This document shows, piece after piece, positions 4,382 through 20,953 of a stretch of DNA of 24,760 bases. Numbering within the stretch: the first letter of the stretch is position 1; every line of letters begins with the position of its first letter. The DNA comes from a virus. The translations under genes were made by a program, and so were the position numbers. Below the pieces are notes generated by a model. That model was given only the letters and a program-made list of their open reading frames with translations. It was not told where the DNA came from and made no database searches. The stretch spans positions 1 through 24,760 of IMG/VR virus record IMGVR_UViG_3300025853_000611. One strand, given 5' to 3'.

Positions 4382-4603
4382 GTGCAGCTATACGAATACT
4401 TGCATGATGAAAATATAAGCCAAACCGACTTTTCCAATAAGATCGGAGTCTCACAGCCAACATTAAGCAGATATGTGAATGGTGATAATATTCCGTCAGT
4501 CATAATTGGTTATAAAATCGAAAAGGCCACCAAAGGTGCAGTCAAATGTCGAGACTGGGAGATTTTGCAAAAGGCTTTAGCTAGGGCCACTGCCAATGGT
4601 TAA
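4382..4603 (+). CDS. Cro/YdaS-like HTH regulator
   Basis: 73 residues from GTG 4382, with GGGGTG 7 nt upstream; an in-frame GTG at 4373 is the alternative. The sequence has the helix-turn-helix pattern ISQTDFSNKIGVSQPTLSRY, with NGDNIPSVIIGYKIEKATKGAV after it. This is close to YdaS/Cro-like proteins of lambdoid prophages. It is the first gene of the rightward early operon and lies opposite the CI-like repressor, which fits a Cro role of turning down the repressor promoter. It overlaps the next gene by 8 nt. Confidence 0.8.
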   Translation: MQLYEYLHDENISQTDFSNKIGVSQPTLSRYVNGDNIPSVIIGYKIEKATKGAVKCRDWEILQKALARATANG

Positions 4604-5021
4604 TGCCCGCGATAAGGGTCGCAGAGGCGAATACCAAGTCGGCCAGCAATACTTTGAGCATATGGGGATTCGCCTCAAGCGCGACATCGAGCAATACCGC
4701 GCTGCTGATCATGGTGACTTGCTGGCAGATGGCGATTTTGATTGGCCGTTTTGCATCGAAGTAAAAACCTATGGCGGGCTGAATGTAACGCATCAGCCAA
4801 GCTGGTGGGAGCAGGTCAGCAAAGCAGCAGATGCACAAAAGCTCATGCCTGTGCTGTGGTATAAGTATGACCGCCGAGATTGGCGAGTAGTCATGCGGGC
4901 CAACAACGTCAGCTTTGCGCTGGGCGGTACGCTTGGCCACGATGACATGCTGCTCACCATGAACGCTGACACATGCTTTTACCTCAGCAGAGAAATACTG
5001 GCAGCGAGGGCAGGCGTATGA
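4596..5021 (+). CDS. PD-(D/E)XK endonuclease, Holliday-junction-resolvase-like
   Basis: 141 residues. KGRRGEYQVGQQYFEHMGI gives Glu12 in the first helix, HGDLLADGDFDWPFCIEVKTY gives Asp41 and Glu55-Val-Lys57, the complete PD-(D/E)XK catalytic set. The layout resembles the small phage and archaeal Hjc-like resolvases (PDDEXK_15 type). It probably trims or resolves branched recombination intermediates during replication and packaging. It is tightly coupled: it overlaps the Cro-like gene by 8 nt and the methyltransferase by 4 nt (ATGA). A restriction-like or homing function cannot be excluded, but the early-operon position favours resolvase. Confidence 0.72.
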   Translation: MVNARDKGRRGEYQVGQQYFEHMGIRLKRDIEQYRAADHGDLLADGDFDWPFCIEVKTYGGLNVTHQPSWWEQVSKAADAQKLMPVLWYKYDRRDWRVVMRANNVSFALGGTLGHDDMLLTMNADTCFYLSREILAARAGV

Positions 5022-6154
5022 GGTACGGCTCTGTCTGCTCTGGCGTGGAAGCTGCAACTGTCGCCTGGCACTCGCTTGGCTGGGAGCCGAAATGGTTTAG
5101 CGAAATTGAAAAGTTCCCTAGCGCAGTTTTGCAGCATCACTATCCCGACACGCCAAATCACGGCGACATGACGCAATTTAAGGAGTGGCCTGATGAACCA
5201 ATTGACCTTCTCGTGGGGGGAACCCCTTGCCAAAGCTTCTCAGTCGCTGGCCTTCGAAAAGGACTTGCTGACCCGCGCGGAAACCTCATGCTCACCTATC
5301 TTGCCATTTCTGCACGCTATCAGCCCAACTGGCTGGTTTGGGAGAACGTCCCCGGCGTCTTGTCTAGCAACAGAGGACGGGATTTTGGCACCTTCCTTGG
5401 GGCGTTGGCAGAACTCGGGTATGGGTTCGCCTACAGAGTGCTTGACGCTCAGTATTTCGGAGTGGCCCAAAGACGCAGGCGTGTGTTCGTTGTCGGATAC
5501 CTTGGAGATTGGAAACGTGCCGCAGCGGTTCTATTTGAGCGCGAAAGCCTGTCAGGGCATTCTGCGCCGAGCAGACAAACGCGGGAAGAAACTGCCGGAA
5601 CAGTTAAAACACGCTCTGGAAGCGGTGGCGGCGGCGGGCTAGGCACTGACGAAGCTTGCGCAGGCTATTTGCAACCGACTTGGCCCGCTAAGGTCGCTTC
5701 TACGCTAAACGCAGCATTTGCTGAAAAGCAGGGCTTGGAAGATCAGCATATAAATGGTGGCGCACCGCTGTTTGTGCCGCAAAGCACTGGCCCGCTTACT
5801 GCTGGCATGGGCAAAGGCCCGCGCGGTACTGAGGGCGTAGAAAGTAATCATGTCATTGCATTTCCCGCTGAAATGAGTGGAACGCAAGCAGCCTCAGCTA
5901 AAAATATAAGCCCTGCTTTATCAGTAAAGCACACAACTGCATTAGCAAATGACCTTCAAGTACGCCGCCTAACGCCAACCGAGTGCGAGCGTTTGCAAGG
6001 CTTTCCCGACAACTACACGCAAATCCCGTATCGCAACAAGCCAGCGGAAAGCTGTCCAGATGGCCCTCGCTACAAGGCTATGGGCAACTCAATGGCTGTG
6101 CCTGTCATGCGCTGGATTGGCGAGCGGATCAACATGGTGGAGGCATTAGCATGA
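5018..6154 (+). CDS. DNA C5-cytosine methyltransferase
   Basis: 378 residues from ATG 5018. Motif I, YGSVCSGVEAATVAW, binds S-adenosylmethionine. Motif IV, GGTPCQSFS, holds nucleophile Cys71. Motif VI is WENVPG (Glu109), motif VIII is AQRRRRVFVVG, and motifs IX-X are near the C-terminus (RRLTPTECERLQGFPDNY and YKAMGNSM). The variable target-recognition region (about 190-300) contains a Gly-rich linker. It methylates cytosine at carbon 5 in an unknown site. With no restriction enzyme beside it, it is best read as self-protection against host restriction. A second, out-of-frame gene lies inside (5193-5642). It overlaps both neighbours by 4 nt. Confidence 0.95.
   Translation: MRYGSVCSGVEAATVAWHSLGWEPKWFSEIEKFPSAVLQHHYPDTPNHGDMTQFKEWPDEPIDLLVGGTPCQSFSVAGLRKGLADPRGNLMLTYLAISARYQPNWLVWENVPGVLSSNRGRDFGTFLGALAELGYGFAYRVLDAQYFGVAQRRRRVFVVGYLGDWKRAAAVLFERESLSGHSAPSRQTREETAGTVKTRSGSGGGGGLGTDEACAGYLQPTWPAKVASTLNAAFAEKQGLEDQHINGGAPLFVPQSTGPLTAGMGKGPRGTEGVESNHVIAFPAEMSGTQAASAKNISPALSVKHTTALANDLQVRRLTPTECERLQGFPDNYTQIPYRNKPAESCPDGPRYKAMGNSMAVPVMRWIGERINMVEALA
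5193..5642 (+). CDS. overprinted ORF inside the methyltransferase gene
   Basis: 149 residues in the +1 frame relative to the methyltransferase, wholly inside it. It has a perfect AAGGAG (5180-5185) 7 nt before ATG 5193, unusual for a chance internal frame. The protein begins MNQLTFSWGEPLAKASQS and ends with NVPQRFYLSAKACQGILRRA, then KRGKKLPEQL and ALEAVA. I recall ORFs with this C-terminal pattern (PxRFFLSxKACxGILRRAxxRGKxLP) as recurrent hypothetical proteins in phage genomes with such methyltransferases. The overlap covers methyltransferase motifs IV to VIII. Function unknown; candidate accessory to methylation or counter-defence. Confidence 0.65.
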   Translation: MNQLTFSWGEPLAKASQSLAFEKDLLTRAETSCSPILPFLHAISPTGWFGRTSPASCLATEDGILAPSLGRWQNSGMGSPTECLTLSISEWPKDAGVCSLSDTLEIGNVPQRFYLSAKACQGILRRADKRGKKLPEQLKHALEAVAAAG

Positions 6155-12081: not shown

Positions 12082-12597
12082 CTAAAAGTTCGCAATAACG
12101 AGAACGCCGCGCTGGACGTCTAGCACGGTGTAGTCGTGCGCAAGATCGCGGGCGTGGGCTTCATAGTCGAAGTAGCGGCTTGCAAAGCTTTCTTGGTTTT
12201 CACATGCTAACAGTTCGTCAGCGTGTTCGTCGGCATAATCGCGCCAGCTATCCCAAACGCCGTGGGCGCTTTCGAGCGCTTTCTCTGCATCGTCAATGTT
12301 ACCGTTGTAATTATCAACAATGGCGCGAACCTCGTCTTGATTGTAACCGCTTTCTGCTGCGCTTTCTACCAAGCGAGAATAATCAGCTATTGCTTGCAGG
12401 TCTGGATGCTCGCCAAAATTTGGCAGGTCATCGTAGTCATGGATCGCATATTCTTCTGCGCCGGGCGCTGGTGACTTCTCAAGCATTGCGCTGATCTGGT
12501 CGCGTATCTCGTCAACCCATTCGCCAGCAACGTCGATCCATCTGCCGTGTAAAATGCCGCTATTGTAAGAGGCTAAACATGCTGCATAAATTCTCAT
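12082..12597 (-). CDS. ardA: antirestriction protein ArdA
   Basis: 171 residues from the ATG at 12597 (minus strand), with AAGGAGAG 8 nt upstream; open sequence farther upstream is ignored. The N-terminus MRIYAACLASYNSGILHGRW, then IDVAGEWVDEIRDQISAML and AEEYAIHDYDDLPNFGEHPD, matches the ArdA family well in sequence and length. ArdA is an acidic mimic of bent B-form DNA that occupies the DNA site of type I restriction-modification enzymes. The protein here is strongly Asp/Glu-rich throughout. It protects incoming phage DNA. It is transcribed leftward with three small unknown genes. Confidence 0.93.
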   Translation of the reverse strand: MRIYAACLASYNSGILHGRWIDVAGEWVDEIRDQISAMLEKSPAPGAEEYAIHDYDDLPNFGEHPDLQAIADYSRLVESAAESGYNQDEVRAIVDNYNGNIDDAEKALESAHGVWDSWRDYADEHADELLACENQESFASRYFDYEAHARDLAHDYTVLDVQRGVLVIANF

Positions 12598-12648
12598 TAT
12601 CTCACTCTCCTTGTTGGTTTGTTTTTCTGCTGCTTGACGCATGGCAAG

Positions 12649-12669
12649 GCAGCGCCGGGTTGGCGCTGC
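12649..12669. repeat. 8-bp hairpin between the leader gene and ardA
   Basis: GCAGCGCC (12649-12656) and GGCGCTGC (12662-12669) around five bases. It lies in the leftward transcript between the 62-residue gene and ardA, without a following T tract. It may be a processing or stability hairpin separating expression levels. Confidence 0.5.
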
Positions 12670-12680
12670 TAAACGATGGG

Positions 12681-12869
12681 TCAATATCCAAGCCAATTTA
12701 AAACTGACTGTGCGTCATAAGTTTTGCGGTCGCCCTCGTCGCGCAGGAACATTTCAAAATCTTGATCTGTCAGATTATGATTGCGCACGATTTCAGTGTG
12801 AGCGCGTGCTTTTGAAATCATTTCGCCTTTGGCGCTATAGTAGTAGCTCTGGTCAAATTCGGTTTGCAT
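12681..12869 (-). CDS. 62-residue hypothetical protein, first gene of the ardA operon
   Basis: Leftward, with GGAGAA 7 nt before the ATG at 12869. The protein starts MQTEFDQSYYYSAKGEMISK and ends QSVLNWLGY; it is acidic overall and looks like a small helical protein. As the promoter-proximal gene of an operon with ardA, it may be another counter-defence protein (for example anti-CRISPR or anti-RM) or a regulator. No family is recognised and there is no HTH. Confidence 0.6.
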   Translation of the reverse strand: MQTEFDQSYYYSAKGEMISKARAHTEIVRNHNLTDQDFEMFLRDEGDRKTYDAQSVLNWLGY

Positions 12870-19544: not shown

Positions 19545-20953
19545 ATGGCTACTTACACTAGCTCAACCGCCATTGGCGAGAGAGAAGACCTGAGCGATGT
19601 GATTTACCGCATTAACTAAGATCGGTGCGGTCTAAACTGGGTGAACTGCTGGAACCCTAAGTCAGAGATGATATGGCAATCAGCATCCAAGCTATCCACA
19701 CAGCGATAGAAGGTTCAGAGACTACCTGAGGGGTAAGCCCCCTTAATAACAGGCTAGAGCGCCCAGCGCTGCAAGTACACATTGCCTTGTAGTGATGATA
19801 TAGTCCAATCCTCATCGAAAGGTGAGAGGGAATTGCGATCCCGACGAAACCCCCCTTGTGAGCAACTCGCAAAAGGAAACTACCAAGGGTATTTTCCACG
19901 AGTGGCAAGTGCAAGAATTGGCTGCTGCTGTTGACACAAACTATGTCAACGAAGGCGCTGATTATTCTTATGCAAACCCAAGCCCAACCACACGCCTTGG
20001 TAACTACCACCAGATTAGTGTGCAGGCTGCTTCTGTTTCCAACACTCTTGATGTGGTGGACAAAGCCGGGCGCGACAAGGAAACTGCGTTAACCATACAC
20101 TAGCGTAGTATAAACTGGGTGAATTGCTGGGAAGCCTAAGTCCTTCGGGATAAGGTAATCAGCAGCGAAGCCTCTAACGAGGAACGTTCAACGACTATCC
20201 GCAAGGAGTACACTCAAGCGAGTGGAAGCGCCCAGAACCGTAATGGTTATGATATAGTCTGGTCTGCATAGAAATATGTAGCGGTTCGAAAGAACGGATT
20301 AGGAAGTAGCGCTCCTAATTGAACACAACGATGTTAAGGTACTTAAAGGCCTTGAGCAACGCCGTGACATTGAGAAGTCTTTGTTTAAGAACGAAGCTCG
20401 CTCTGCGTCTGATCCTCGTAAAGCTGCGAAGCTTATCACTTGGATTACCAATGTTGATAAGCCATCTGACATGGCTGCTGCAACTGGTGACGGTTCTGAC
20501 GCTGCTGACCTTACTGGTACGGCTGCTGCATTAACCTTGGCGAAAATCGACGCTGCTATGCTTGCTGCATATACAGATGGCGGCTCGCCAAACATGTTGC
20601 TCATGTCACCAACCAACAAGCAGAACTTCTCAGGTCTGTCTTCTGGCTCAGTGGCAACCAACCAGATCACAATGACAGCGCCTAAGGAGGCGTCAATCAT
20701 TGGCTCAGTTTCACTTTACTTGTCAGACTTTGGCGAGTTGAGCGTGACTGTTGATCGTCAGTGTCCAAACTCAGAAATGTATTTGATCGACACCGATTAT
20801 GTATGTCTTGGCTCACTGCCCGGTCGTATGTTTAGCGTTTCTGACGTTGCATCTACTGGTGACGCAACCAAGTTCGCAATCGTGTCTGAGTGGACATTGA
20901 TCGTGAAGGCTCCAAAGGCTCACGCGGCTGTGATTGGTCTGAACGGCTCATAA
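19545..20953 (+). CDS. major capsid protein (DUF5309/SU10-like), split by two group I introns
   Basis: Exons 19545-19612, 19836-20089 and 20331-20953 join into 945 nt, 314 residues. AGGAGG lies 6 nt before the ATG. The spliced frame has the DUF5309 landmarks: GEREDLSDVIYRI then DPDETPLVSNSQ across junction 1 (codon ATC), FHEWQVQELAAAVDTNYVNE, TTRLGNYHQISVQAASVSNT, VVDKAGRDKETAY across junction 2 (codon TAT), and VKVLKGLEQRRDIEKSLF. The C-terminal domain runs to GLNGS. It forms the icosahedral shell. Unspliced mRNA stops early: TAA at 19617-19619 ends the product after 24 codons, and TAG at 20101-20103 ends exon 2. A UUCG-loop terminator follows. Confidence 0.93.
19613..19835 (+). ncRNA. group I intron 1 (subgroup IA) in the capsid gene
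   Basis: 223 nt, no ORF. P1: exon CCGCAU (19607-19612) pairs with GUGCGG (19625-19630), with the splice-site U opposite G19625. P10: exon 2 CGAUC (19836-19840) pairs with GAUCG (19620-19624), directly adjoining P1. P3: CUGGGUG (19637-19643) with CGCCCAG (19760-19766). P4: UGCUG (19647-19651) with CAGCA (19681-19685). P6: CUAUC with GAUAG. P7: GACUA (19720-19724) with UAGUC (19801-19805). P7.1: GGGG-UAAG-CCCC. P8: CUGCAAG with CUUGUAG. P9: CUCAUC-GAAA-GGUGAG. The last base is G19835. The P7.1/P7.2 insertion defines subgroup IA. Confidence 0.93.
20090..20330 (+). ncRNA. group I intron 2 (subgroup IA) in the capsid gene
   Basis: 241 nt, no ORF. P1: exon ACUGCGU (20083-20089) with GCGUAGU (20103-20109), with U20089 opposite G20103. 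P3: CUGGGUG (20115-20121) with CGCCCAG (20229-20235). P4: UGCUG (20125-20129) with CAGCA (20160-20164). P5 is capped by UCC-UUCG-GGA. P6: CCUC-UAAC-GAGG. P7: GACUA (20193-20197) with UAGUC (20255-20259). P7.1: CC-GCAA-GG. P7.2: CACUC with GAGUG. P8: AACC with GGUU. P9: CUGCAUA-GAAA-UAUGUAG, then GUUC-GAAA-GAAC and UUAGGA with UCCUAA. The 3' end at G20330 is chosen because it restores frame; P10 is weak. Confidence 0.9.

Follow-up and report, generated by a model that had tools for sequence, protein, structure and literature searches.

Two group I introns without endonuclease genes in an SU10-type phage capsid gene and their probable movement by site-centred conversion

The major capsid gene in the window (the whole stretch of DNA analysed, a virus contig of 24,760 bases) is interrupted by two group I introns. 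We consider it very probable that these introns are self-splicing, that they are mobile elements rather than regulators, and that they move by conversion centred on their insertion sites, the break most likely being made in trans. Each intron would fold, and guanosine together with the P1 guide would bring about a cut after the last U of the exon, following which the exons would be joined. Early in-frame stops would keep the ribosomes on the upstream exon out of the intron core, and excision of both introns would give a capsid protein of 314 residues. Having no endonuclease themselves, the introns would spread between phages through DNA-level gene conversion around the insertion site, and the break would most likely be made by a nuclease that belongs to the same phage or to a co-infecting one.

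The two introns and the spliced capsid protein

The three exons of the gene, all on the plus strand, lie at 19545-19612 (codons 1-22 and two bases of codon 23), 19836-20089 and 20331-20953 (with the stop codon). The first was placed by the spliced frame, the enumeration of boundaries and alignment with uninterrupted relatives, the second by the spliced frame, the enumeration of boundaries and the mapping of relatives, and the third by the spliced frame and the enumeration. When joined, the exons make a frame of 945 nt that encodes a protein of 314 aa. This product is an SU10-type major capsid protein (PF17236, SU10_MCP; E 2e-73, 247.8 bits against a cut-off of 24.1, residues 5-311). Upstream of the gene is an SU10-type portal and downstream an SU10 adaptor; the window also encodes an integrase, a terminase and a repressor-like HTH protein. 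Since these neighbours fit a temperate tailed phage, the virus is probably one. An ArdA-type antirestriction protein (12082-12696, minus strand) and a C5 cytosine methylase (4973-6154, plus strand) were also observed in the window.

Intron 1 (site A, 223 nt, 19613-19835) and intron 2 (site C, 241 nt, 20090-20330) are on the same strand as the exons. As the earlier note had expected, cmscan gave two matches to the Rfam model RF00028 in the window, with 86.2 bits for intron 2 and 76.4 bits for intron 1 (E 5.4e-21 and 4.8e-18, full model 1-253, gathering cut-off 50). The three other matches, all to microRNA families, were far under their cut-offs. No ORF of at least 50 aa lies wholly within intron 1 or intron 2.

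Splice points were chosen by enumerating pairs of splice sites and scoring each pair for protein alignment and P1 pairing; as both entered the score, their support is not independent of the boundaries. The chosen boundaries agree with uninterrupted relatives (e.g., L003, L004, and L005), and phage C72C1 is split at the site of intron 2. The enumeration and the spliced frame returned the coordinates, the intron lengths and the 945-nt frame that the earlier note had given. An end of intron 2 just before 20306 was rejected, as it broke the frame.

Both introns have a P1 guide with a U-G pair at the 5' splice site and a terminal G, although the P1, the U and the G helped to choose the boundary and are not independent of it. 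In intron 1, the exon strand ACCGCAT (19606-19612) pairs with GTGCGGT (19625-19631), and a putative P10 strand, GATCG (19620-19624), is complementary to CGATC at the start of exon 2 (19836-19840). In intron 2, the exon strand ACTGCGT (20083-20089) pairs with GCGTAGT (20103-20109). The guide at site C was found to vary with the exon: an exon ending in GCCT goes with the guide GGGCAA in L091, and one ending in GCGT with GCGCAA in L083.

When exon 1 was read through into intron 1, an in-frame stop was met at 19617-19619, ahead of the guide and the core. Readthrough from exon 2 met a stop at 20101-20103, the last base of which is the first base of the guide. Hence no capsid protein can form without both splices, just as the earlier note had held. 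The same stops, which both insertions carry in the incoming frame, also rule out an intein. In all 37 different introns (a set without L102 and L208), an early in-frame stop starts at intron nucleotides 2-19. A review (PMC3073962) states that such a stop is present in the majority of group I introns and that splicing is aided by translation upstream.

The core was examined by covariation over 22 related introns. In these, 98.1% of the cells were paired, compared to 77.2% in shuffles, and the covariation score was 0.576 against 0.183. Two-sided changes occurred in 24 of the 35 core pairs, P8 being left out of the count. The helices backed in this way are P3, P4, P5, P6, the P7 pseudoknot, and a P9-like helix. 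Paired cells reached 99.4% for P3 and 100% for both P4 and P7, with compensatory changes, which for P7 fell on two of five pairs. P7 is formed by 19720-19724 with 19801-19805 in intron 1 (19720-19805), where the five pairs are all kept in 22/22 introns, and by 20193-20197 with 20255-20259 in intron 2 (20193-20259). Sliding the partner by 1-3 columns reduced the pairing to 31-39%; the helices were read off the consensus of the alignment itself, which puts slid versions at a disadvantage, the exception being P7, which was entered manually as a pseudoknot.

Single-sequence folding was weakly better than that of shuffles (z -1.5 and -2.4), and predicted P7.1/P7.2-like hairpins between P7 and P3' in both introns. 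Such hairpins are tied to subgroup IA. The predicted structures suggest an IA-like build for both introns, with P2 absent. The earlier note had described a capsid gene with two group I introns that lack ORFs, which is borne out, and had given their cores as full group IA, for which an IA-like build is probable. In a review, elements such as P7.1/P7.2 are said to mark the classes of group I introns.

Intron sites in related genes and exchange around them

The spliced protein was searched against viral contigs, and of the 226 relatives the best 80 were used. Eight of these 80 carry introns, all at site A, and no intron was found by exon mapping among 80 loci related to C72C1; neither figure is a prevalence, because in both lists the ranking followed the match score, to the disadvantage of split genes. 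Exon mapping covered 205 loci. Annotated phages with a relative amounted to 294 records, and among the 40 listed only C72C1 matches in two pieces.

Eight intron sites in this gene, at window residues 23, 48, 55, 88, 102, 108, 115, and 234, were drawn from the mapped loci and from two DNA patterns of the intron core (the sites at 102 and 115, both in L102, and the intron of L208 were placed by hand). The capsid genes of L091 and L105 carry three introns at once. Splicing yields proteins of 314-316 aa for every intron-bearing gene with both ends present (35, counting the window), 33 by enumeration and L102 and L208 by hand; since open frames and good alignment were rewarded, this result is not independent of the model. 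Conservation at residues 23, 48, and 115 exceeds that of 99, 95, and 96% of windows, respectively. The sites at 102 and 108 are fairly conserved (89 and 74% of windows less conserved), and those at 55, 88, and 234 are average (52, 52, and 62%).

In L102 (380-937), introns of 256 and 261 nt, placed by hand, surround an exon of 41 nt, and only the first is over the Rfam cut-off. The sole match in the genome collection was L208, a contig of a MAG labelled Rickettsiales, whose capsid gene is 61% identical and has an intron at the residue-234 site. This contig may hint at the host, or it may be a binned virus; hence no host is claimed.

The introns have spread horizontally between phages. Intron 2 of the window and the site-C intron of L085 are identical at a level of 0.992, compared with 0.797 for their capsid genes and 0.541 for third positions. 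For the site-D introns of L103 and L115, the corresponding values are 0.992, 0.755, and 0.494. Intron identity was above gene identity in 105/105 pairs at site A, 3/3 at site D, and 39/55 at site C, where the other 16 pairs did not show it. Except for those of L091 and L105, the site-A introns are 82-100% identical among themselves, and the two introns of the window are 63% identical to each other. Recent copying between intron 1 and site C was ruled out, as the introns group by site.

Presence and absence were then placed on a capsid tree (FastTree; 174 rows, 159 of them different, converted columns included; L038 with letters N, the partial L117 and L118, and second copies of contigs left out). 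The minimum number of changes was 16 for site A, 12 for site C, and 4 for site D, gains and losses being counted together without direction. We infer that the exchanges ran in the direction of spread.

The main-type site-A introns have the flank TACCGCAT/CGATCCC (the stroke marks the insertion point) in 21/21 cases, against 1/151 alleles without intron A. This sharing is in part that of P1 and P10: the P1 exon strand ACCGCAT is present in 21/21 main-type alleles and 16/151 empty ones, and the P10 target CGATC in 21/21 and 19/151. L091 and L105 have site-A introns of a different type, in a different flank. The one empty allele with the intron-A flank, L033, is either an uninvaded target or a clean loss of the intron. 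At site C, the TGCGT flank is present in three alleles without intron C (L020, L041, and L128).

Sister pairs with at least six differences and at most 10% difference were compared; they are disjoint, yet not fully independent. At site A, the share of differences lying within 15 nt was 0.147 for pairs differing in the intron and 0.025 for pairs with both members empty (13 vs 46 pairs, p 5e-6). At site C, it was 0.143 vs 0.038 (10 vs 47 pairs, p 5e-4). When the P1/P10 core was omitted, the excess stayed at 6-15 nt (p 2e-4 for A, 5e-4 for C). There was no such clustering in sister pairs that both lacked or both had the intron. Without the core, the excess at site C was not significant at 8-30 nt (p 0.064) or 8-45 nt (p 0.096) and was absent at 45-90 nt (p 0.77). 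As it is not significant beyond 15 nt, part of the site-C signal may reflect selection for P1.

A similar result was obtained with the closest alleles. Of the 11 differences between the window and L089, which lacks intron 1, 5 lie no more than 60 nt away from the empty site A (p 4e-6); of the 85 between the window and L003, which lacks both introns, 15 lie in that range of the two sites (p 2e-6). Such piling up of differences at insertion sites is as expected from homing with co-conversion. Introns of phage T4 home with co-conversion of the exon. The hallmarks of homing present in our data are precise empty alleles and co-conversion of the exon flank, the latter reaching to 15 nt at site C without the core.

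The introns could also have been spread or lost by ordinary homologous recombination between co-infecting phages, with no break at the site. This would agree with the outcome of the endonuclease searches, in which four families were covered and none was found, and with the differences between L003 and the window, which are patchy along their length, as in mosaics. However, the centre of exchange lies at the sites, to within about 15 nt, and introns that are 98-99% identical occur in genes that are 75-82% identical, with 38-51% of third positions different. Genes so diverged are poor substrates, which disfavours recombination over long tracts, and we regard this explanation as rather unlikely.

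Related introns stand at different sites: that of L083 at site C and that of L097 at site B' are 87% identical, and those of L090 at sites B and E 79%. This kinship suggests that introns also reach new sites, and movement by reverse splicing followed by copying back would explain how. Reverse splicing, however, would not carry in the exon differences of the donor, whereas the site-A flanks differ beyond P1 and P10; such a route is improbable. Conversion centred on the insertion site would account for the differences in the flanks.

Near-identical phages with both, one or no intron

The best proof of the introns, as far as sequences can provide it, is given by the natural alleles L003, L089, L104, and L107. 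Together with the window, these contigs represent one near-identical phage type and encode the same 314-aa protein. The window, L104, and L107 have both introns, L089 has intron 2 only, and in L003 the protein is encoded by an uninterrupted frame. L117 has intron 1, and its contig ends before site C. The introns of L104 and L107 and intron 1 of L117 are without any difference from those of the window, and the three contigs carry three different IMG/VR metagenome numbers. An error of assembly is excluded, as the same introns are present in all three. Since L003, with neither intron, and L089, without intron 1, encode an identical protein in almost the same phage, the introns are, to judge from these alleles, dispensable.

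The earlier note had proposed that self-splicing serves as a control point for head assembly. It is true that two splices are needed for any capsid protein; in addition, bacterial group I introns depend for their splicing on upstream translation, according to a review (PMC3073962) whose reference list includes a title linking splicing in T4 to the growth state. The alleles L003 and L089, however, speak against this proposal, as does the frequent change in intron presence. Upstream translation and the early stop, as described in the reviews, would bring about a dependence on translation without selected regulation. Splicing as a selected control point for capsid production thus appears very improbable, and we do not retain this part of the earlier note. 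A broken or misassembled capsid pseudogene, which might be suspected because the incoming frame runs into a stop at each insertion, has practically no chance of being the explanation, since the same structure is present in independent contigs, the three exons are conserved as one protein and the core is under selection.

Capsid introns elsewhere, the nuclease and significance

Introns of this kind were also searched for by DNA patterns. The first core pattern was built from a capsid intron with no exon specified, and gave 25 contigs, 16 of them with this capsid gene; because of its origin, the scan is biased toward kin of intron 2. In five contigs, an RF00028 match adjoins an exon of other major head protein families (phrog_283, 3437, 267): L094 (2300-3808), L099 (1671-3482), L092 (9347-9564), L093 (1140-1360), and L095 (6558-6785). 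L094 has three matches, and L099 has two, with an endonuclease VII-like ORF (1798-2391) inside one. In L108 (7897-9680), an HNH ORF is followed by the core pattern and then by a phrog_1357 major head gene, with no RF00028 match over the cut-off. The remaining contigs are L088 (terminase), L096 (a gene of unknown function), and L086, which has no RF00028 match and an HNH-like ORF judged by eye.

The second pattern, which is absent from the window's own introns, occurs at no fewer than 120 loci, of which the 80 listed were used. Among these, the P7 partner was present in 70/83 matches and a downstream ORF in 68 (one ORF being common to two). SU10_MCP was the commonest Pfam family among the 67 scanned downstream ORFs of the matches listed, with 9/67, a rough figure because some of these ORFs are endonucleases and not exons. 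In the pattern scans, capsid genes were frequent carriers of such introns.

Introns in capsid genes and several introns in one virion gene are already known, as PMC3706429 and PMC10448857 indicate. The former describes an intron in the major capsid gene of mycobacteriophage LittleE (Cluster J), the splicing of which was seen by RT-PCR and which is 'most likely' group I. It is a single intron of 819 bp with an endonuclease ORF, whereas the capsid gene of the window, in a phage of another type, holds two short introns without ORFs. The same paper (PMC3706429) cites a capsid intron in lactococcal phage Tuc2009 and reports a tail gene intron in the Cluster J phages BAKA and Optimus, that of BAKA being of 265 bp and without an endonuclease gene. 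Vibrio phage ICP1 (PMC10448857) resembles our case in a tape-measure gene with three introns and in turnover at kept splice junctions; in contrast, its endonuclease genes are in or next to the introns, other genes are involved, and a terminase intron stands beside a T5orf172 endonuclease. The introns of phage T4 (td and others) are likewise group I, a class for most of which an early in-frame stop is stated (PMC3073962), but they lie in genes of nucleotide metabolism, and td carries its own endonuclease, I-TevI.

The nearest annotated case is phage C72C1 (OQ984150.1, our L083), whose capsid gene is related (55%) and has a group I intron at the site of intron 2. It differs in having one intron, of 251 nt, and in being deposited as two CDSs and not as an intron. 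In OQ984150.1 (20001-21202), two 'major head protein' CDSs are recorded, the second starting 230 nt into the second exon, and three small antisense ORFs stand between them. This looks like an annotation error, and it agrees with the expectation of the earlier note that gene callers break such genes. Its description of capsid introns as unusual holds in part. LittleE and Tuc2009 (PMC3706429) are precedents, and capsid genes often carried such introns in the pattern scans. In a literature search that covered few subscription papers, no capsid gene with more than one ORF-less intron was met, nor one with such introns at eight sites. Among the titles listed, capsid introns were not met apart from Cluster J.

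The introns of the window are too short for an endonuclease. The endonuclease searches of the window's group covered four families. HNH, GIY-YIG, HNH_3, and T5orf172 were all absent from the window. In the group, HNH was found in 0/32 records, HNH_3 in 0/21, and T5orf172 in 0/20, most records being fragments and C72C1 being given as complete. GIY-YIG was found in 0/20 virus or phage records; one match, in a 21st record, was elsewhere in a MAG.

A PDDEXK_15 phage endonuclease ORF is present in the window (4596-5021) and is a possible candidate for a nuclease acting in trans. Moreover, HNH ORFs of 215 and 219 residues lie directly upstream of, and overlap, an RF00028 match of 74 bits each in L234 (3302-3949) and L325 (1718-2377). 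In both contigs the match stands ahead of the first capsid exon that was located. These SU10-type capsid genes are distant, with about 39-41% identity to the nearest query, and the HNH ORFs are a possible source of homing activity. By analogy with collaborative homing, which is discussed in PMC10448857, the introns may have lost their endonucleases and would move in trans.

A stronger reading is that the major capsid genes of aquatic phages host a guild of tiny group I introns which have no endonuclease and depend on movement in trans, and which act as immunity marks when phages compete. That phages can compete by means of intron endonucleases is the claim of PMC11620839. If the reading were true, a capsid gene with the intron would be shielded against a nuclease whose target is the empty site of co-infecting rivals; we consider it doubtful.

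The capsid gene is the one most used to recognise phages in metagenomes, and it may be split, and hence missed or recovered as fragments. The set of near-identical phages with both, one or no intron allows the turnover of introns to be watched, and the spread of endonuclease-free introns among phages offers a testable case for homing in trans. It also raises the question of whether two splicing steps come at no cost to a virion gene that is heavily expressed.
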